Shown here piece after piece: positions 1,845 to 25,818 of a stretch of 64,000 nucleotides of DNA. This DNA comes from Planctomycetota bacterium (lineage in GTDB: Bacteria > Planctomycetota > J058). The stretch covers positions 1 to 64,000 of the forward strand of contig JAMLIC010000022.1 in assembly GCA_023954375.1 (NCBI GenBank), written 5' to 3'. How positions within the stretch are numbered: position 1 is the stretch's first letter; the number at the start of each line of letters is the position of its first letter. The notes below the pieces were generated by a model. The model saw nothing but the letters and a program-made list of their open reading frames with translations, was not told the DNA's origin and did no database searches. The position numbers were made by a program, and so were the translations under genes.

Positions 1845-2821
1845 GCCGCGGGCTCCTGCTCGGCGAAGAGCCGCGCGATCACGTCCTCGAGCGGCGGCTC
1901 CTCGACGGCGAGGTCCTGGATGGGCAGGGCGCGCAGGGCCTGGTCGACGGCCGCCTTCACGTCGGCCGCCGGGACCGTGGCCACGAGCTTGCCGTCGTCG
2001 GTCCGCTGGAAGCGGTCGGCGAGCGCGAGCTCCTCGGGCGTGGGCTCGCGCACCGGCGCCACGACCACGCGCCGGTCGGTGCCGTGCCTGCGCACGAGGT
2101 CGACGAGCGCGCCGTCGAAGCGCAGCCGCCCGGCGGCGATCACGATCACCCGCGGGCAGAGGGCCGCGATGTCGGCCATGTAGTGGCTCGTGAGCAGGAT
2201 CGTCGCGCCGGTGCGGCGGTTCCACTCCTCGACGAAGCGGCGCACGACCACCTGCATGCGCACGTCGAGCCCGATCGTCGGCTCGTCGAGGAACAGCACC
2301 TCCGGCCGGTGGAGCAGCGCCGCGACCAGCTCGCACTTCATGCGCTCGCCGAGCGACAGGTTCCGCACGGGGCGGTCGAGGAGGCCGCGCAGCTCGAGGA
2401 GCTCCGTCAGCTCGTCGACCGTGCGGCGCGCCTCGTCGCGCGCCACGCCGAAGAGCGCGCGGTTGAGCTCGAACGTCTCACGCGCCGGCAGGTCCCACAG
2501 GAGCTGCTGCTTCTGCCCCATGACCAGCGTGATCCGCGCCAGGTAGCCCGGCAGGCGGTCGCACGGCCGATGGCCCAGGACCTCGACCTCTCCGGACGTC
2601 GGCACGAGGAGACCGGAGAGCATCTTGAGGGTGGTCGTCTTGCCCGCGCCGTTCGGGCCGAGGAAGCCCACGCGCTCGCCGGGCGCGATCGTGAAGGAGA
2701 CGCCCTCGACGGCCTTGACCGTCTCGTACTCGCGCCGCACCAGCGACCTGATGGAGCCGAGCAGGCCGGGCGCCTTCTTCGGAGTGCGGTAGTGCTTGGT
2801 GAGCCCCGCGACGCGGATCAT
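1841..2821 (-). CDS. ABC transporter ATP-binding protein
   Basis: This is a 326-residue ABC ATPase and the first gene of the exporter operon. Walker A is GPNGAGKT (residues 55-62), the signature is NLSLGERMK, and Walker B plus catalytic Glu is VLFLDEPTIGLD, followed by the H-loop in LLTSHYMAD. The first 45 residues hold an insertion between the first strand and Walker A (APGLLGSIRSLVRREYETV), as in NatA/YhaQ-type and viologen/daunorubicin-type exporters. The last ~80 residues are a C-terminal extension. The ATG at 2821 was chosen because the family motif begins MIRVAGLTKHY; the longer upstream frame lacks family similarity. A TAGGAT -10-like element lies 10 bases upstream. Confidence 0.93.
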   Translation of the reverse strand: MIRVAGLTKHYRTPKKAPGLLGSIRSLVRREYETVKAVEGVSFTIAPGERVGFLGPNGAGKTTTLKMLSGLLVPTSGEVEVLGHRPCDRLPGYLARITLVMGQKQQLLWDLPARETFELNRALFGVARDEARRTVDELTELLELRGLLDRPVRNLSLGERMKCELVAALLHRPEVLFLDEPTIGLDVRMQVVVRRFVEEWNRRTGATILLTSHYMADIAALCPRVIVIAAGRLRFDGALVDLVRRHGTDRRVVVAPVREPTPEELALADRFQRTDDGKLVATVPAADVKAAVDQALRALPIQDLAVEEPPLEDVIARLFAEQEPAA

Positions 2822-2831
2822 GAGGGCCGGG

Positions 2832-2837
2832 ATCCTA
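2832..2837 (-). promoter_or_regulatory. Candidate -10 element for the ABC exporter operon
   Basis: TAGGAT on the minus strand ends 10 bases before the ATG at 2821. No convincing -35 and no Shine-Dalgarno are visible between it and the start. Initiation about 7 bases downstream would give a leader of only a few nucleotides. Confidence 0.4.
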
Positions 2838-3020
2838 CCGCGCGGGCGGCCACCCTGACCGGACGGGCCGGCGGCGCTCCACCTCGACGCGCTGGCCGCG
2901 GCCGCGCGAGACGCGATCACGCGCGACCTCCTCGGGTCCGCGCGAACCGCTCGGCGTGCCACTTCCGCGCTCGTCGCGACCGGCGCCGTCCGCCGACCTG
3001 ATCGGCTGCGCGCCGGCCCG

Positions 3021-3042
3021 AGCGCTCCGCGCGGGTAGCTCC
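3021..3042. repeat. 22-base intergenic repeat, copy 1
   Basis: These 22 bases are identical to 24805-24826. The sequence contains GCGCTCCGCGCGGGTAGCTC. Both copies lie in divergent intergenic regions with a minus-strand gene on the left and a plus-strand gene on the right, and both are in the same orientation. Confidence 0.7.
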
Positions 3043-3083
3043 TCGTGCCGCTCCCGCACACGTCTCGGGCCGGTGAACCGCGC

Positions 3084-3170
3084 GTAACTCCTGAGCCAGG
3101 ACGGCCACGCGCAGCCGCGCCCGCGCGAAGCCGCTTCGTAGCCCTGCGAACGCCGCGGCGGTAACTCCTG
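3084..3170. repeat. GTAACTCCTG short repeats
   Basis: GTAACTCCTG occurs at 3084-3093 and again at 3161-3170, each preceded by a CG-rich run. The related GTAGCTCCTC lies at 3035-3044 inside the 22-base repeat. On the minus strand all read AGGAGYTAC followed by CGC-rich sequence, suggesting degenerate copies of one element. Confidence 0.4.
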
Positions 3171-3224
3171 CGAGTCCAGTCAGGCATCCGACTTGCTCTC
3201 GCCGGGCTACCCTGGGGCGTCGCC

Positions 3225-4853
3225 ATGGCCTACGACCCCGACGGCAAGAGCGAGCACTTCGCCCGCTGGCTCGTGCGCCTGCGCTGGCGAGGGATCGTCC
3301 TCGCGGCGGTCGTCCTGGTCCTCCTCAGCGCGGGCACCGGCCTCGTCCGCAGCCCGTGGCTGTGCGCGCTCGTGCTGGGGATCCTCGCCGCCGCCAACCT
3401 GGCCCTCGATCACCAGCTCCGCCGCGGCAACGTGAGCGACTCGTCGCTCTTCGGCCAGCTCGGGCTCGACGTGGCGGCGATCACGGTCGCCCTCCACCTC
3501 ATGGGCGGCGTCGAGAACCCCTTCCAGGTCTACTACGTGTTCCCGACGATCATCTCCGGGATCGTCCTCCCGCGCTCGGCGGCCTACGGCGTCGCGGGCC
3601 TGGCCAGCGCCCTCTACCTGGCCATGGGCCTGCTCGAGTACGCCGGCGTCCTGCCCCACCACGACGTGGGGCCGCTCCCCTTCTGGCGGGCGACCCCGGC
3701 CGGCCAGGGGCCGGACCAGTTCGAGGACGCGGGCTACCTCCTCGGCGCCGCCTGCGTGCTCCTCTCGACGCTCCTCGTTGCCACCTACCTGACGACGCAG
3801 GTCGCCGAGCGGCTCCGCGCCCAGGAGCACGAGCTCGCGGCGTCGCGCGACCGCATCGAGGCGGTCCTGCGGGCGCTCGGCGAGGGGGTCGCGTTCTTCG
3901 ACCATGACGGCCGGCTCGTGCTCGCCAACGCCGCCTTCGACCGGCTGGTCCCGGCGACCGCCGGGTTGCGCCTCCTCGAGCGCGCCCCGGCCGCGCTGCG
4001 CCCGCCGCTCACGGAGGCGCTCGGACGGCTCGCCGCCGGGGCGCGGCACGAGACGTTCGAGGCGGCCGCTGACGGGCGCGTCCTCGCCTGCGGCCTTTCG
4101 CGCGCGCCGGGCGGCGTGGCCTGGGTGGTCGAGGACGTGACCGACCGCCGCGAGGCGCAGGCCCGGGCCGAGACCGAGCGCCGCCTCATGGACCTGGGCG
4201 TCCTGGCGGCCGGCCTGGCGCACGAGGTCCTGAACCCCCTCGCGTCCGTCGCCTCGAGCGTCCAGCTCGCGCAGGAGGCCGCCGGCGGCGCCGAGCCGGT
4301 CGACGCCCCGCTGCGGCAGGCCCGGCGACGGATCGCCCAGCTGGCCGAGGTCGTGCGGAGCGTCGCCGACCTGGCGCGCCCGCCGGCCGCCCGGGGGGCG
4401 CCCTCGCCCCTCCTGGAGGTCTGCCGGCAGGCGATCGAGCAGGCCAGGGAGGAGCGGCCCGGCGCGGCGGAGATCGCCCTCGACGCGCCGGCGGGCGGTC
4501 CGACCGTCGTCATGGCCGACGGCGCCATGAGCACGGCGCTCAAGAACCTGCTCACCAACGCGATCGACGCCACCGACGGCGAGGGCCCGGTGACCCTGCG
4601 CGTCCGCGCCGAGCCGGACGCGGCCGTGGTGGAGGTCGAGGACGGCGGCCCCGGCCTCGGCGCCGAGCCCGCCGCGCGCCTGTTCGTCCCCTTCTTCACG
4701 ACCAAGCCGCCGAGCCGCGGCACCGGGCTCGGCCTGCCGATCGCGCGCAGCATCGTGCGCGAGCACGGGGGCGAGATCGCGGTCGACTCCGCGCCGGGGC
4801 GCGGGACCCGCGTGACCGTGCGCCTCCCCCGGCAGGAGGAGGACGCCGCGTGA
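3225..4853 (+). CDS. Membrane-bound PAS sensor histidine kinase, NtrB/ZraS-like
   Basis: This 542-residue sensor has about six N-terminal membrane helices (residues 20-190), a short coiled region, a PAS-like domain (about 205-315) and a kinase core. The phosphoacceptor is His333 in GLAHEVLNPLAS. The N box reads NLLTNAIDAT, G1 is EDGGPGLG, the F box is PFFTTKPP and G2 is GTGLGLPIARS. A dimerisation box of the HExxNPL type followed by a compact HATPase domain is typical of kinases paired with sigma-54 activators, and its stop overlaps the start of exactly such a regulator (GTGA at 4850-4853). The ATG at 3225 lies 11 bases after TACCCT, a possible -10. The signal sensed is unknown. Confidence 0.92.
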   Translation: MAYDPDGKSEHFARWLVRLRWRGIVLAAVVLVLLSAGTGLVRSPWLCALVLGILAAANLALDHQLRRGNVSDSSLFGQLGLDVAAITVALHLMGGVENPFQVYYVFPTIISGIVLPRSAAYGVAGLASALYLAMGLLEYAGVLPHHDVGPLPFWRATPAGQGPDQFEDAGYLLGAACVLLSTLLVATYLTTQVAERLRAQEHELAASRDRIEAVLRALGEGVAFFDHDGRLVLANAAFDRLVPATAGLRLLERAPAALRPPLTEALGRLAAGARHETFEAAADGRVLACGLSRAPGGVAWVVEDVTDRREAQARAETERRLMDLGVLAAGLAHEVLNPLASVASSVQLAQEAAGGAEPVDAPLRQARRRIAQLAEVVRSVADLARPPAARGAPSPLLEVCRQAIEQAREERPGAAEIALDAPAGGPTVVMADGAMSTALKNLLTNAIDATDGEGPVTLRVRAEPDAAVVEVEDGGPGLGAEPAARLFVPFFTTKPPSRGTGLGLPIARSIVREHGGEIAVDSAPGRGTRVTVRLPRQEEDAA

Positions 4854-13751: not shown

Positions 13752-15311
13752 ATGCCCTCGACCGTCTCGCGCCGCCTGGCGCTCGGACTCCAGGCCGTCC
13801 TGCTGGCCCTCGTCGTCGTCGGCGGCGCCGACGCCGCGGAGGACCAGGCGCGCGCCCGCAAGGACCTGAAGAAGAACGCCAAGCGGCTGGCCAGCGTCGA
13901 CCAGGCGCTCGGGCAGAAGCAGCAGCAGCTCGAGCAGATCCTCGGCGCGGCGAAGCTCGACGAGGCGCGGCAGCGGGCCGTCGAGCAGGAGATCGTGCAG
14001 CTCCGCGACGCGGCCGGCGAGCTCATCGCGAGCGTGGCCCTGGCGGACAACGAGGACGCGGCGGAGTTCCTGGTCGGCTTCGCCGTCGCGACGCCCAGCA
14101 ACGACCTCTACGAGCGCACGCTGAGCGAGCTCGGGCGGCTCGACGACGCAGGCGCGGTCGGCTGGCTCGCGTCGGCCCTCGGCGCCGGCGTGCTCGAGGA
14201 CGACAAGCGCGGCCGCGGACGCGCCGCCCGGCGCGGCGGCGACGACGCCTGGAAGGCGCAGGTCCTCATCGCGCGGGCGTTCGAGGGGATCGGGAGCCCG
14301 CTGACGGTCCCGTCGCTCGCCGCGCAGATCGAGAAGGGCACGACGCCCCAGGTGGTCAACGCCTGCGTCAAGACCGCCGCGCGCAAGCGCGACAAGCGGC
14401 TCATCCCGGCGCTCATCAGCTTCCTCGGCCGCGTCGAGCGGCAGGGCGGCTGGGAGTACTACCACGTTCGTCAGGCGCTGGTCGACCTGACCGGCGAGGA
14501 CTTCCTCACCCAGGAGCGGTGGTCCGGCTGGTGGGCGGCGAACGAGGCCACGTTCGACTTCGACCGGCGCGGCGATGCGCGCGAGGCGGCCACCCGCGAG
14601 CGCGGTCCGCAGGAGAAGGTCCCGACCTTCTTCGGCTCGGAGATCGCGTCGAACCGCATGTGCTTCATCATCGACATCTCCGGCAGCATGGTGATGACGG
14701 ATCGGCCGCTCGAGCACCCCGCGACGAGCGATGAGGAGTTCGCCCGCCTCGACCCGGAGTCGCCGGAGATCAAGCCGTTCAAGCGCATGGAGCGGGCCAA
14801 GAAGGCGCTGGTCGAGGCGGTGCGGGGGCTCCAGCCCACGCAGCGCTTCAACATCATCGCCTTCTCCTCGAACAACCGCATGTGGAAGTCGACCACGGTC
14901 GAGGCGTCCGACGCGAACCGGGCCGACGCGATCAAGTTCATCGAGGGGCTGCGCGAGGACGGCGGCACGAACACCTACGACGCGTTCGAGGCGGCCCTGC
15001 GCGACCCGCTCATCGACACCATCTACCTGCTCTCGGACGGGGCCCCCATGGTGAAGGTGGGCAACCCCGGCGAGCAGATGCGCCTGTTCGCGCGCGACGA
15101 GACGCGCCGGGTCCTGGACTTCGTGCGGCGCGAGAACCGCTTCCGGGGCGTGCGCATCTACACCTTCGGGATGGACGGCCCGGGCGTGTGGCACACGAAG
15201 TGGGGCCCGCGGCCGGTCACGCTGCCGACCGAGGCCGACTTCCTGAGCATCCTGTCGGGCTTCATGCGCGACCTGGCGAACATGACCGGGGGCACGTTCA
15301 AGTCGATCTGA
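13752..15311 (+). CDS. Exported HEAT-repeat / von Willebrand factor A domain protein
   Basis: This 519-residue protein has a signal peptide (RRLALGLQAVLLALVVVG, cleavage after ADA), a coiled-coil stretch rich in Lys and Gln (about 30-85), HEAT-like helical repeats (about 90-265) and a VWA domain (about 295-519). The metal-site motif is DISGS (Asp308, Ser310, Ser312), with the later Thr and Asp contributed by GGTNTYDAFE and YLLSDGAP. The architecture is common among planctomycete-type exported proteins and suggests a periplasmic or surface adhesion or scaffold role rather than an enzyme. The gene is monocistronic, with its own -10-like TAGAAT and a GGAGGA ribosome site. A 17-base direct repeat spans its stop codon. 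Confidence 0.85.
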   Translation: MPSTVSRRLALGLQAVLLALVVVGGADAAEDQARARKDLKKNAKRLASVDQALGQKQQQLEQILGAAKLDEARQRAVEQEIVQLRDAAGELIASVALADNEDAAEFLVGFAVATPSNDLYERTLSELGRLDDAGAVGWLASALGAGVLEDDKRGRGRAARRGGDDAWKAQVLIARAFEGIGSPLTVPSLAAQIEKGTTPQVVNACVKTAARKRDKRLIPALISFLGRVERQGGWEYYHVRQALVDLTGEDFLTQERWSGWWAANEATFDFDRRGDAREAATRERGPQEKVPTFFGSEIASNRMCFIIDISGSMVMTDRPLEHPATSDEEFARLDPESPEIKPFKRMERAKKALVEAVRGLQPTQRFNIIAFSSNNRMWKSTTVEASDANRADAIKFIEGLREDGGTNTYDAFEAALRDPLIDTIYLLSDGAPMVKVGNPGEQMRLFARDETRRVLDFVRRENRFRGVRIYTFGMDGPGVWHTKWGPRPVTLPTEADFLSILSGFMRDLANMTGGTFKSI

Positions 15312-20108: not shown

Positions 20109-21107
20109 GTGACCGTCTCCGCCCCGGCGGCCGCCCGCGAGGATCGGCCGCACGTCGCCTGGACCCGCAAGGACCTGCTCGGCCTGCGCGAGCTGACCCG
20201 GGAGGAGCTCCTCGCGCTCCTCGACACCGCCAAGGGCTTCGCCGAGATCTCCACCCGCTCGATCCGCAAGGTGCCGACCCTGCGCGGGCGGGTGGTCGTG
20301 AACCTGTTCTTCGAGCCCTCCACCCGGACACGGCTCTCCTTCTCGCTGGCGGCGCAGCGCCTCTCGGCGGACGTGCTGGACTTCGGCAAGGAGGGCTCGT
20401 CCACCTCGAAGGGCGAGACCCTCGTCGACACGGCCCGGAACATCGAGGCCATGGGCGTCGACCTCTTCGTCGTGCGCCACGCGGCCCCCGGCGCCGCCGC
20501 CGTCCTGGCCCGCCACCTGCAGGCGTCCGTCGTCAACGCGGGCGACGGCGCTCACGAGCATCCGACTCAGGCGCTGCTCGACTGTTACACGATCCGCGAG
20601 CGCCTGGGCCGCGTCGACGGGCTGCACGTGGCGATCGTGGGCGACATCGGCCACAGCCGCGTCGCGCGCTCGAACATCTGGGCCCTCCAGAAGCTCGGCG
20701 CGAAGGTCACCGTGGTGGGGCCGCCGACGCTCGTCCCGGCGGCCTTCACGCAGCTCGGCGTGAACGTGTGCCACGACCTCGACGCCGTGCTGCCCGAGGT
20801 CGACGTCCTCAACATGCTGCGCATCCAGCGCGAGCGCGGCGGGGGCGGGCTCAACTTCCCCTCGGTCGAGGAGTACTCGCGGCTGTTCGGCCTCACCCAG
20901 CGCCGCCTCGAGCGGGCCAGGAAGGACGTCCTGATCATGCACCCGGGGCCGCTCAACCGAGGGGTCGAGATCGCGCCGGAGGTCGCCGACGGCCCGAACA
21001 GCGTGATCCTCCAGCAGGTCTCCGCGGGGCTCGCCGTGCGCATGGCCGCCCTGTTCCTCTGCTCCCTGGCGCAGTCGAAGCCCGAGGCGGCGGCGGAGGG
21101 CGTGTGA
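20109..21107 (+). CDS. pyrB: Aspartate carbamoyltransferase catalytic subunit
   Basis: This 332-residue enzyme of UMP synthesis condenses carbamoyl phosphate and aspartate. The carbamoyl-phosphate site reads [12 protein letters not shown], the K-loop region is [13 protein letters not shown], and [10 protein letters not shown] and the aspartate-site MLRIQRER follow; [11 protein letters not shown] is near the C-terminus. It is about 20 residues longer than the Escherichia coli protein at the N-terminus. The GTG start immediately follows the pyrR TAG. No pyrI regulatory chain is present. Its stop overlaps pyrC as GTGA. Confidence 0.97.
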
Positions 21108-22402
21108 GCGAGACGCTGCTGATCGCCCACGGGCGCGTCGTCGATCCGGCGCGCGGCGTCGACGGCGCGCTCGACGTGCTCGTCGAGGACGGCAAGGTCC
21201 GCGCCGTCGCGCCCAACCTGCTGCGCGAGGGCCGCTACGACCGGGTCATCGACGCCGCCGGGATGGTCGTCGCGCCGGGGCTCGTCGACATGCACGTCCA
21301 CTTCCGCGAGCCCGGACGCGAGGCGGACGAGACGATCGCCACCGGCGCCGCGGCCGCCGTGCGCGGCGGCTTCACCAGCGTCGCGGTCATGCCCAACACG
21401 GAGCCGGCCGTCGACGACCAGGCCGACGCCGAGTTCCAGGTCCTCCAGGGCAAGCGCGCGGGGAAGGCGCGCATCTACCCGATCGGCGCGGTGACCCGCG
21501 AGCGCAAGGGCGAGGCGCTCTCCGAGATGGACGGGCTCGTCCGCGGCGGCGCCGTCGCGTTCTCGGACGACGGCGACCCCGTCCGCTCGGCCGAGGTCAT
21601 GCGGTGCGCGCTGCTCTACGCCAAGATGCTCGGGCGCGTGGTCATCCAGCACGCCGAGGACCCGGACCTCGCCAAGAACGGCGCGATGAACGCCGGGCTC
21701 GTGTCGCTCATGCTCGGCCTCTCCGGCAAGTCGGCCGCCTCCGAGGAGGTCATGGTCGCCCGCGACATCACCCTGGCGAGCATCACGGGCGGGCGGCTGC
21801 ACATCGCCCACTGCTCGACCGCGGGCTCGGTCGAGCTCGTGCGGCAGGCCAAGCGGCGCGGGCTCAAGGTCACCTGCGAGGCCTGCCCGCACCACTTCTC
21901 GCTCACCGACCAGGCGGTGTGCAGCTTCGACCCGAACTTCAAGATGAACCCGCCCCTGCGCACGCAGCAGGACCTCGAGGCGCTCGTCGAGGGGCTCCTC
22001 GATGGCACGATCGATGCCATCGCCTCGGATCACGCGCCCCACTCGCGGGAGAAGAAGGAGGTCGAGTTCCAGGACGCCCCCAACGGCGTCATCGGGCTGG
22101 AGACCATGGTGCCGGTCTCGGTGACCAAGCTCCTCGTCGAGCGCGGCATGAAGCTCGCCCGCCTGATCGAGCTCCTCTCCACGGGCCCGGCGCGGATCCT
22201 CGGGCTCCCGGCCGGGTCCCTCGCCCCCGGCGCGCCGGCCGACGTGGCGGTCCTCGACCTCGACACCACCTACACGATCGAGCCCCGCTTCCGCTCGCGC
22301 TCGAGCAACTGCCCGTTCGTGGGCTGGCAGGTGCGGGGCCGCGCGATGTGGACGGTCGTCGGCGGTCGTGTGGTCTACGACCGCGCGGCCGAGGACCACT
22401 GA
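21104..22402 (+). CDS. pyrC: Dihydroorotase (class I)
   Basis: This 432-residue zinc amidohydrolase catalyses the third step of pyrimidine synthesis. Metal ligands lie in [10 protein letters not shown] (two His), FSDDGDPV (the Asp of class I enzymes), [15 protein letters not shown] and ASDHAPH. Substrate contacts NTEPAVDD and the C-terminal [11 protein letters not shown] are conserved. The GTG at 21104 overlaps the pyrB stop. Class I dihydroorotases often associate with PyrB, in keeping with their coupling here. It converges on the HNH-RuvB gene with a 7-base gap. Confidence 0.97.
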
Positions 22403-22409
22403 CGGACGC

Positions 22410-24707
22410 TCAGCCCGCCTTGCGGGCGATCGCGTCGGCGGGGGCAGCCAGGACCCGTCCGAGCGGCGTGATCTCCACGAGCCCGCGCCGGACGAGGATC
22501 GGCTCGTGGATGGTCCTCAGCGCCTCCTCGCTCACGTCGAGCCGAGCGGCCAGGGTGCCGAGCCCGAGCGGCCGACCGGACTGCTGGAGCTCCCGCACGT
22601 ACGCCCGCTCGATCCCGTCGAGTCCGACGGCGTCCACCTGCTCCCGCCGGAGCGCACGTTCGACGAGCCGCTCGTCCACCGTCGTCACGCCCTCGACCGC
22701 GGCCTCATCGCGCACGGTCCCCAGCAGCGCCAGCGCTCCCCGTGGGGTCTCCCGGGAGGCGCGCGCGAGCTGCTCCGCCGCGGCGGGCGTGAGCTCGAGG
22801 CCCGCGCGCCGCGATGCGCGCGACACGATCGTCGCGAGCTCGCCCGTGCCATAGGGCTCGAGCCTCAGCACGCGGAGGCGCCCCAGCAGCGGCCGCGGGA
22901 GCCTGTCTGGGTCGGTCGTGGCGCCCACGAGCGTCAAAGGGGCGAGTCGAAGCCGGACGGTCCGCATCCGCAGACCTTGCCGAACGGGCAGGCTCACCGT
23001 GCCCCTGTCGAGCGCCTCGTACAGGACCTCGGCCGCGCGCGGCGGGATGGCGTGGAGCTCGTCGACGAACAGGACCCCGCCACGCCGGAGCGAGGCCAAC
23101 GCGCGGACCAGCGCGTCAGGCGTCCGCAGGTGCGGCGCCGGCAGCTCGGCCAGCGGCGCGCCGAGCTCGGCCGCGACCGCCCGCGCGAACGAAGACTTCC
23201 CGAGGCCCGGCGGCCCCACGAACAGGAGGCTCCTCAGCGGCTCGCCTCGGCGCCCCGCCGCGGCGATCGCCAGCGCCAGGCGCTCTCGGACGGCGGATTG
23301 ACCCACCAGCGCGTCGAGGCCGCTAGACTCGCTCCGGTCAGCCAGGGGGAGCTTCGACGCCGCCCCCGCGCCGTCCTCGAGCTCCCGCGGCGCGCCGGGC
23401 GTGAGCATGAGCTCCCCCTGCCGCTCGTTCCAGGAGAGCAGGTGCTCGTGACGCGCCCACCAGGAGGTGTCGACCTCCGGCGGCAGACGGTCGAGGTCGA
23501 CGAGCTCCGACGCCGGCTTCGCTGCCGCCGGTACGAAGTGGAGCTCGACTGGAGTGAGGGGCACCTGCTCGACCGGACGGCCCGTCCGGTCGAGGAACCG
23601 CAGGGCTCCTTCCGGGTCGCCCAGCGCGATCAGCAGCCGCGCGTGGATGAGCGCGTGACACGGCTCGCAGACGCTGAGCAGGTTGGACCGCTCCGTCCTT
23701 CCTCCGTAGCTGCGCCAGACCAGGTGATGGACGGTCAAGCGCTCCCGGGAGCCGCAGCAGCGACACTGGTAGCCGTCCCGGCCGAGGACCTCGTCGCGCA
23801 GCGCCGGGCTGGTCGCGGGGGCTCGCAGGTGCGCGGGGACGAGCGATCCGCCGTTCGCCGGGTCGAGCACCGCGGCGTCCTCCTGCTTCGGGTCTACCAC
23901 CCCCGGCTCGTCGGACGGACGCCTCTCGAGCCCCGCCGTCAGCTCGCGCAGGTCGATCGTGACCTCCTCGCCCTCCTCCCCGATCGTGGCCACGCTGAGG
24001 CCTTCACGTCCCGGGGCCCCGCGGGGCCAGGCGTGAAGCAAGTAGTGCCGGTCGTTGACCGGTCGCCAGCCCGGTACGCTCCCGTCGGGTCGCATGCGCA
24101 GGATCCACTGCGCGACCTCCATCATCATGTCCTGGTCCGTGAGCCGCTCGCCGCACGCCGCCTCGAGCTTCTCTCGCGCCCGCCGCCAGACCTCGTAGCG
24201 GGTCGGTGTCAGGTCCGCCCCCACGCGTTGACGGGGTTCGTGGATCGTGCGCCGCTCGGGCGCGGTGGGGAGGTCGCCCTTCTCGCGCCGCGCCACCTGA
24301 CGCTCGAGCTCTCTGGTCGTATGCGTCGCCGCCCAGTTCGCCCAGGCTCGGTCGGTCTCCGGAGTGGCGATCGTGACCAGGACCTTCACGTGGGTCCAGG
24401 TGAGGCGATCGCTCGCGAAACCCGCGTCGATCTCGGGGAGTGAGCGGAGCGCCCGCCCCGTGGCGATCAGGTTCCGCGCCGTGGAGACCGGCAGCCTGAG
24501 CCGGTGCCTCGCGAAGTGCTTCAGGGTGGGGTGCCCGAGCTCGAGATAACCTCGGCGATCGGCGAGATCCGCAAGGTAGAACGCCGCGACGCGGGCACCT
24601 ACATCACCTCCACGCAGCGCGGACTGGGCCCGCGACGCGGCGAGCTCGGGCGCGAGACCCTCGCGCAGCTCCGTCTCGAGGGCGACGGTCGGGGAGTGGC
24701 TTCGCAT
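22410..24707 (-). CDS. HNH endonuclease fused to a RuvB-type AAA+ branch-migration helicase
   Basis: This 765-residue protein has three parts. Residues 1-170 resemble the helical domain that precedes many HNH nucleases (LADLADRRGYLELGHPT, DRLTWTHVKVLVTIATPE). Residues 300-355 are an HNH nuclease with zinc knuckles: YQCRCCG, LTVHHLVWRSYGG, SNLLSVCEPCHALIH, with the His-His, Asn and final His all present. Residues 465-765 match RuvB end to end: LDALVGQSAVRERL, Walker A VGPPGLGKSS (about 496-506), Walker B LFVDELHAI, sensor 1 LTLVGATTDPDR, then the winged helix LGLGTLAARLDVSEEALRTI and GLVEITPLGRVLA. The ATG at 24707 has a strong CGGAGGAA ribosome site. A DNA-targeting role, possibly at branched DNA, is inferred. 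Confidence 0.88.
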   Translation of the reverse strand: MRSHSPTVALETELREGLAPELAASRAQSALRGGDVGARVAAFYLADLADRRGYLELGHPTLKHFARHRLRLPVSTARNLIATGRALRSLPEIDAGFASDRLTWTHVKVLVTIATPETDRAWANWAATHTTRELERQVARREKGDLPTAPERRTIHEPRQRVGADLTPTRYEVWRRAREKLEAACGERLTDQDMMMEVAQWILRMRPDGSVPGWRPVNDRHYLLHAWPRGAPGREGLSVATIGEEGEEVTIDLRELTAGLERRPSDEPGVVDPKQEDAAVLDPANGGSLVPAHLRAPATSPALRDEVLGRDGYQCRCCGSRERLTVHHLVWRSYGGRTERSNLLSVCEPCHALIHARLLIALGDPEGALRFLDRTGRPVEQVPLTPVELHFVPAAAKPASELVDLDRLPPEVDTSWWARHEHLLSWNERQGELMLTPGAPRELEDGAGAASKLPLADRSESSGLDALVGQSAVRERLALAIAAAGRRGEPLRSLLFVGPPGLGKSSFARAVAAELGAPLAELPAPHLRTPDALVRALASLRRGGVLFVDELHAIPPRAAEVLYEALDRGTVSLPVRQGLRMRTVRLRLAPLTLVGATTDPDRLPRPLLGRLRVLRLEPYGTGELATIVSRASRRAGLELTPAAAEQLARASRETPRGALALLGTVRDEAAVEGVTTVDERLVERALRREQVDAVGLDGIERAYVRELQQSGRPLGLGTLAARLDVSEEALRTIHEPILVRRGLVEITPLGRVLAAPADAIARKAG

Positions 24708-24726
24708 GGCTCTTCCTCCGCCCGCG

Positions 24727-24826: not shown

Positions 24827-24885
24827 CGGCAGGCCCCGCACGCGCCACGCGACAGGGCCCGGCGCTTGCCACGTCCAGGCTCCCC

Positions 24886-25818
24886 ATGACGCGCCTTCTT
24901 CCGGTGTTCACGACCGAGGCCGACTACGCGAGGCTCCGGTGGACCTCTGGCGCCTGGGCGCCGGCGCTCGAGGCGCTCTGTGTCCGGCACGACCTCGACC
25001 CGACCTCCTTCGTCCGCGCCGGGGATGGGACGCACGTCGTCTACCTCGGGCCGGGGGTCGTCCTCAAGCTCTTCGTCCACCTGTGGGCCGACGACGCCGC
25101 CCGCGAGCGCGCCGCCCTGCGGGCGATCGACGGCCGCCTCCCCGTTCCGCGTGTCCTGGCCGAGGGCGACCTGGAGGGTTGGCCGTACGTGCTGATCGAG
25201 CGCCTCCCCGGCATCGCGATCAAGCATGTGTGGGCCGACCTCGACCGGACCGACCAGGAGGCGCTCGCGGAGGAGGTCGGCGCGTTCGCGCGGCGCCTGC
25301 ACGACGAGGTCGCGCCGGGGCAGGGATGGGCGCAGCCGACCTGGGACGACTTCATCGCTGACCGCCGGGCGCGGTGCCTGGAGCACCACGCCAGGCGCGG
25401 CGCGACGCGCGAGTGGCTGGAGCGGATCGAGGCCTGGCTCGCCGGGCTGCCGCCCGTCGCGCCGACCGACCTCCGGCCGCGGCTCCTGCACGCCGACTTG
25501 ACGCACGACCACCTGCTGGTCGAGCAGGTCGATGGTCGGTGGCGCCTCCGCGGCGTCATCGACTGGGCCGACGCGCAGGCGGGCGACCCGCTGTACGACC
25601 TCGCCGTCCTGGCCGTGTTCCTGGCGCAGGGCCGCTCGACCGTCGGCCGCGCCCTCCGGCGGGGGTACGGGCTACCGGACGACGAGGCCACCGCGCGCCG
25701 CCTGCTCGAGCACGCGCTCCTGCACCGGTTCGGGCACATCGCCGGCATCCTGCGTCTCGCCCATGGCCCGCAGGCCCAGGACCTGGCCGCGCTCCAGGCC
25801 GCCCTGTGGGGCGCCTGA
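24886..25818 (+). CDS. Aminoglycoside-phosphotransferase-family (APH) kinase-like protein
   Basis: This 310-residue protein has the APH/choline-kinase fold: a nucleotide-loop region GDGTHVVYLGPGVVLKLF with the ATP-binding Lys, the linker YVLIERLPG, the catalytic motif LLHADLTHDHLL and the metal motif VIDWADAQAGDPLYDLA. Catalytic Asp is present, but the usual Asn of HGDLxxxN is His (HADLTHDH), a variant seen in some APH relatives. The substrate cannot be inferred; the family covers antibiotics, sugars, choline and homoserine. The ATG is close behind the 22-base repeat. It precedes the VanZ-like gene by 56 bases, but that gene has its own -10-like element. Confidence 0.88.
   Translation: MTRLLPVFTTEADYARLRWTSGAWAPALEALCVRHDLDPTSFVRAGDGTHVVYLGPGVVLKLFVHLWADDAARERAALRAIDGRLPVPRVLAEGDLEGWPYVLIERLPGIAIKHVWADLDRTDQEALAEEVGAFARRLHDEVAPGQGWAQPTWDDFIADRRARCLEHHARRGATREWLERIEAWLAGLPPVAPTDLRPRLLHADLTHDHLLVEQVDGRWRLRGVIDWADAQAGDPLYDLAVLAVFLAQGRSTVGRALRRGYGLPDDEATARRLLEHALLHRFGHIAGILRLAHGPQAQDLAALQAALWGA

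Follow-up and report, generated by a model that had tools for sequence, protein, structure and literature searches.

Results

Gene and Surroundings

The window, a 64,000-nucleotide stretch of the draft genome of a Planctomycetota bacterium (G000; 10.1 Mb, 115 contigs, ∼6% contamination; the other assemblies used here are also drafts), carries on its minus strand a gene that joins an HNH nuclease to the motor protein RuvB (Table 1). The first-pass annotation had described an uninterrupted frame with a strong ribosome site, lying between pyrC and a phosphotransferase, and each of these points is borne out. The frame runs unbroken from its ATG at 24707 to 22410 and encodes 765 aa, the bases ahead of the start read GGAGGAAGAGCC-ATG with GGAGG 7 nt upstream, and Pfam identifies both flanking genes. 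The GC content of the gene is that of its surroundings.

Table 1. Features of the HNH-RuvB locus, with positions in the window
Feature	Position	Strand	Basis and remarks
pyrC, left flank	21104..22402	plus	Pfam; G001 homology (blastn) ends at pyrC stop codon
HNH-RuvB fusion gene	22410..24707	minus	765 codons plus stop; open frame, translation, full-length homologues elsewhere
Shine-Dalgarno GGAGG	24715..24719	minus	7 nt before ATG; sequence read directly
N-terminal helical head, DUF222-like, residues ∼17-222	24042..24659	minus	Paralogue matches; common to multi-copy HNH paralogues
HNH nuclease domain, residues 315-357	23637..23765	minus	Pfam; 17-way alignment A4
Linker motif WWxRHxHL, residues 416-423	23439..23462	minus	Alignments A1, A4
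RuvB AAA+ large domain, residues 464-613	22869..23318	minus	Pfam; residues compared with housekeeping RuvB
RuvA-docking beta-hairpin region, residues ∼566-588	22944..23012	minus	Comparison with housekeeping RuvB; PMC10272136 for role
RuvB AAA+ lid, residues 619-692 (P655, R656 invariant)	22632..22853	minus	Pfam
RuvB winged helix, residues 694-754	22446..22628	minus	Pfam; contact residues per PMC10071043
APH-family phosphotransferase, right flank	24886..25818	plus	Pfam; G001 homology (blastn) resumes at 24872

A second genome of the same genus, G001, matches the window across both flanks (92% and 81%), but the homology stops exactly at 22402 and restarts at 24872. Between pyrC and aph, the window genome holds 2.5 kb including the fusion, whereas G001 holds ∼39 kb of other DNA and no fusion. 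The fusion is thus an accessory gene. What lies at the pyrC-aph junction is variable; the G001 side is represented by L145, L149, L156, and L157 (G001:C24:52000-91600). Next to pyrC, the G001 insert begins with a pair of short, near-identical genes (L149:740-1306), which we take to resemble DUF4351 proteins. Elsewhere in the window, a plus-strand frame (13752-15311) encodes a 519-aa protein that, by the appearance of its sequence, has repeats followed by a putative von Willebrand A domain.

The scanned neighbors of fusion loci are metabolic or housekeeping genes, among them those for uroporphyrinogen decarboxylase, a carbamoyltransferase, a phosphoribosyltransferase, a purine phosphorylase, and tyrosyl-tRNA synthetase. 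Across the neighborhoods of 19 fusion loci, the only shared gene families are the fusion itself and apparent general protein kinases, and neither a conserved partner gene, such as a methylase, nor a defense island was found at these loci. A search for mobile-element ends at the fusion gave no informative repeats, and the fusion loci are free of arrays and flanking repeats.

Domain Architecture

From N- to C-terminus, the protein consists of a divergent DUF222-like helical head, a zinc HNH domain, a WWxRHxHL linker, and a complete RuvB. Pfam places the HNH domain (E 2.2e-7; 31.3 bits against a cutoff of 21.4), RuvB_N (5e-34), the RuvB lid (2e-13), and the RuvB winged helix (3e-9) all above cutoff, in agreement with the earlier description of an HNH nuclease with zinc knuckles and a complete RuvB in one protein. 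The zinc cysteine pairs are C315/C318 and C347/C350. In the large domain, we find Walker A (GPPGLGKS, with K504), Walker B (D549, E550), sensor 1 (T597, T598), and an arginine finger at R610, equivalent to E. coli R174. The nearest solved chains to residues 463-757 are RuvB structures (E ∼1e-51), and in the PDB, the HNH part is close to the HNH domains of McrA and IscB. A single-sequence AlphaFold model reached a pLDDT of 37 and is unusable as a structure.

The fusion is thus like RuvB in having all three RuvB domains with Walker A/B, sensor 1, arginine finger, and lid residues, but it differs in its N-terminal HNH head and in falling below both NCBIfam RuvB equivalog cutoffs (247.8 vs 282 and 231.2 vs 299.05 bits). 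It also misses the NCBIfam IscB cutoff (41.9 vs 175 bits, over the HNH part only). The helical head followed by HNH, and the presence of several copies in a genome, recall the DUF222/13E12-type HNH endonucleases. Pfam, however, recognizes DUF222 in the head of just 3 of 17 homologues (best E 5e-4); in the other 14, the window protein included, the head is too divergent. A further difference lies at the C-terminus, which is a RuvB motor here and a tail resembling RuvA domain III in the paralogues described below. The linker motif is invariant in the three fusions of the window's family (f1); several other fusions have a recognizable form of it, and some have lost it.

Distribution and Conservation

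We scanned 392 genomes of the phylum with the head plus HNH as query; scoring was confined to the four best candidates of each genome, so the counts are minimum values. Once follow-up loci are added, HNH and RuvB share one open frame at at least 19 loci in at least 12 genomes from six families. Among 57 relatives, the full fusion occurs in two other genera of the window's family, as proteins of 773 aa (G005) and 826 aa (G004). These two and G000 represent f1, and the remaining genomes are G086 (f40), G103 (f12), G122, G201, and G233 (f60), G133, G175, and G199 (f72), and G305 (f54), in the last of which the head lies in a different frame from HNH-RuvB. Two copies occur in G103 and three each in G122, G175, and G233. 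What might have been read as a one-off is therefore a conserved accessory family. In the order that holds f60, a query with the RuvB part showed that almost all of 17 genomes have a separate RuvB outside any fusion and that five (G122, G178, G201, G222, G233) have a fusion or part of one. Plasmid and phage records yielded matches to the RuvB part only, none covering 80% of the query, and no fusion. A scan of genome contigs with degenerate peptides, whose reach is limited to close relatives, also found none.

Across 17 aligned fusions (alignment A4), the HNH residues C315, C318, H327, H328, C347, C350, H351, and H355 are invariant, as are K504, D549, E550, T597, T598, R610, P655, and R656 in the RuvB part. 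Nei-Gojobori dN/dS values of 0.06-0.31, alike for head and RuvB parts and with some pairs near synonymous saturation, point to purifying selection on both halves. Broken relatives are also present: in L130:1227-2546 and 2488-3255 (G133), L135 (G305), and L097 (G222), HNH and RuvB lie in overlapping frames, the RuvB is short, or it runs into unrelated repeats, damage that stems from either mutation or assembly error.

The fusion could in principle be an assembly chimera or a decaying gene, a suspicion raised by the fragmented, partly contaminated draft and by these three truncated or frameshifted relatives. We consider the chance of this negligible, given that the same junction recurs in three genera of the window's family and in five other families with invariant active sites and signs of purifying selection. 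The refuting condition named beforehand, an interruption of the frame by a stop or frameshift somewhere in residues 355 to 465, is answered by the single-frame homologues in these groups.

Host RuvABC and Origin of the Fused RuvB

The first-pass annotation noted that the gene lies apart from ruvA and ruvC and proposed to look for separate ruvA, ruvB, and ruvC genes. All three are present in G000, on other contigs: a complete ruvA on C30, an ordinary ruvB on C91 (230 bits to RuvB_N), and ruvC on C48. The fusion is therefore additional to a normal RuvABC set. Besides the ruvC on C48, a second RuvC-family match (E 2e-11) lies at G000:C1:131211-131561, in a 412-aa frame.

The proposed comparison with housekeeping RuvB was made as a maximum-likelihood tree, in which a single branch separates 19 fused RuvB domains from 30 housekeeping RuvBs (support 100/98); the split persists without the two most aberrant rows (100/99). 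The fused RuvBs thus form one separate lineage. Both the tree and an AU test (p-AU 0.003) reject the idea that the host's own RuvB was recently fused. The long branch of the window copy (1.62) leaves its precise position uncertain and makes long-branch effects possible.

RuvA Docking and DNA Contacts

RuvB is known as a motor that depends on RuvA for locating junctions and on RuvC for cutting them. The part of RuvA that binds RuvB is domain III, which engages a hairpin in the RuvB N-terminal domain (PMC10071043, PMC10272136). All 23 positions of this hairpin are filled in each of 30 housekeeping RuvBs. In six fusions, four from f72 and two from G122 (f60), it is cut to 4-6 residues, and one G133 fusion keeps 16 of the 23. 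The hairpin therefore does not define the fusion family. The window copy retains it, with V584 and L586 at the positions of E. coli I148 and I150, so RuvA could still bind this copy. At the first of the winged-helix DNA-contact positions (taken from PMC10071043), the residue is K or R in 30/30 housekeeping RuvBs and hydrophobic in 17/18 fusions. The window copy has I, L, and R at the three positions; with only R751 kept, its grip on DNA is perhaps weakened. Besides reference sequences of RuvA, RuvB, and EF-Ts from E. coli, the main comparisons in this work draw on sequences of the scanned genomes. Taken together, the hairpin and contact comparisons indicate that some members of the family can do without RuvA docking and that the DNA grip is altered, while the ATPase residues are kept.

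These features bear on two other explanations. In the first, the fusion would supplement the housekeeping resolvasome, backing up RuvABC in recombination repair with the HNH domain in the role of RuvC. The RuvB core and its Holliday-junction ancestry fit this idea, but the gene is patchy within its genus, and within an order where housekeeping RuvB is near-universal, and the docking hairpin has been lost repeatedly; we judge this explanation improbable. In the second, the fusion would be a defense or restriction enzyme whose head senses a foreign or modified feature and whose RuvB ring licenses HNH cutting of invading duplex DNA. The ring would then be an ATP-driven translocase or switch like McrB in McrBC, and Holliday junctions would not be the target. 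McrBC-type systems couple an AAA+ ring to a nuclease; the fusion differs from them in that its motor belongs to the RuvB clade and its nuclease is of the HNH type and in the same chain. A defense role would suit the patchy, accessory occurrence at a site that varies within the genus, the kinship of the HNH domain to those of McrA and IscB, and the alteration of both the DNA-contact and the RuvA-docking parts of RuvB. Against it, PADLOC gave no full-length match, only partial ones of HNH or P-loop size, and the examined neighbors are metabolic genes with no conserved methylase-like partner. We therefore hold a defense role to be rather unlikely, although less so than a backup resolvasome. An earlier reading had offered a stand-alone branch-processing or defense enzyme; the stand-alone part gains from the loss of the hairpin in six relatives, and for the defense part, the outcome was partial PADLOC matches and ordinary metabolic neighbors.

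RuvB-less Paralogues

The head and HNH are common to a multi-copy family without RuvB. Nine such copies were read in G000, of which seven have intact tails; for G001, the matches point to a dozen or more. The last ∼50 residues of these paralogues resemble RuvA domain III, whereas the fused proteins end in RuvB and lack such a tail. An hhalign comparison of 13 tails with RuvA domain III of the phylum gave a probability of 96.9% (E 1.9e-10, score 47.3), and the tail profile still aligns on domain III when the target is the whole of RuvA. Control scores were lower: at most 14.9 for 150 column shuffles, 12.2 for the reversed profile, and 8.7 for the UBA-like domain of EF-Ts. Among single tails, L108, L050, and L047 are significant alone; L113 and L136 are not, and neither is L112, which lies outside the alignment. 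Pfam RuvA_C matched none of the single paralogues, the similarity having emerged from profile comparison, and one paralogue matched the NCBIfam RuvA model weakly (E 0.26). Unlike RuvA, the paralogues join this domain-III-like tail to a nuclease and have no RuvA domains I and II. From this likeness, it seems that a single DUF222-like/HNH nuclease family has two routes to a RuvB motor, docking one or being fused to it. The closest head-plus-HNH proteins are those of G067 (L104, L138, L139; 374-401 aa, ∼217 bits, four copies per genome), which have no RuvB, no RuvA-III-like tail, and no adjoining RuvB gene.

Long tandem arrays flank the RuvB-less HNH genes (L042-L050 in G000, L057-L059 in G001), with units of 66-71 nt in up to ∼25 copies (for example, L058:390-1451 and L058:3215-4999). 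At 9 of 12 loci, the upstream array matches the downstream one in inverted orientation, over up to ∼900 nt at 78-80%; matches in direct orientation never exceed 30 nt. Among nine genomes compared, the array unit was seen only in the window's genus. Inverted repeats of large size can extrude as cruciforms, structures that resemble Holliday junctions.

The arrays bear on a further explanation, that the fusion is a selfish or mobile gene, in which the HNH domain would open target DNA for spread of the gene and the RuvB part would aid the recombination by which the gene is copied or resolved. Several dispersed fusion copies per genome, the insertion exactly between pyrC and aph, and the position of the RuvB-less paralogues inside inverted tandem arrays are in keeping with this idea, as is the behavior of mycobacterial REP13E12/HNH/DUF222 genes as repetitive elements (PMC10589994). 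The fusion loci themselves, however, have neither arrays nor flanking repeats, the GC content matches the surroundings, and the copies are divergent, which speaks against a recent burst. We regard mobility as an unlikely explanation, placed between a defense role and a backup resolvasome.

Discussion

The fusion unites known modules in an undescribed, conserved combination. The first-pass annotation knew of no description of this architecture, and our search of the open full-text literature likewise found no account of HNH-RuvB, HNH-RuvA, or such a nuclease-motor arrangement. What sets it apart from ordinary RuvB, beyond the nuclease head, is the set of altered DNA-contact residues, the hairpin lost in six members, the separate lineage, and the location away from ruvA and ruvC.

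On balance, we favor the reading that the fusion is an accessory nuclease-motor independent of RuvA, its head recognizing and cutting DNA and its RuvB ring moving it. The conservation of the fusion suggests a DNA-cutting machine complete in itself, possibly with no need of RuvA. In the mechanism we propose, fused chains would build a RuvB-type AAA+ ring that moves duplex DNA or a branch point past the DUF222-like/HNH head, which would recognize and cut it while occupying the usual place of RuvA as loader. In the RuvB-less paralogues, a similar head would dock a RuvB ring through its RuvA-domain-III-like tail; since the paralogue heads appear to dock RuvB in this way, the fusion would be the covalent form of a docking partnership. 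Branched DNA, such as junctions, forks, and cruciforms, is the likeliest substrate by analogy with the known role of RuvB, and branch processing is one candidate biological role of the fusion. More tentatively, and as something we hold to be less likely than not, the large DUF222-like HNH family as a whole may be RuvB-driven: many members would borrow the ring by their tail and a minority would carry their own RuvA-independent RuvB, acting on branched DNA such as cruciforms formed by the inverted arrays around docked members.

With a nuclease head where RuvA would act, and with members that lack the docking hairpin, the fusion family makes the loading and working of RuvB without RuvA directly testable. 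The RuvA-like docking tails of the paralogues suggest that RuvB is open to recruitment by other nucleases as well, in which case its set of known partners would grow.
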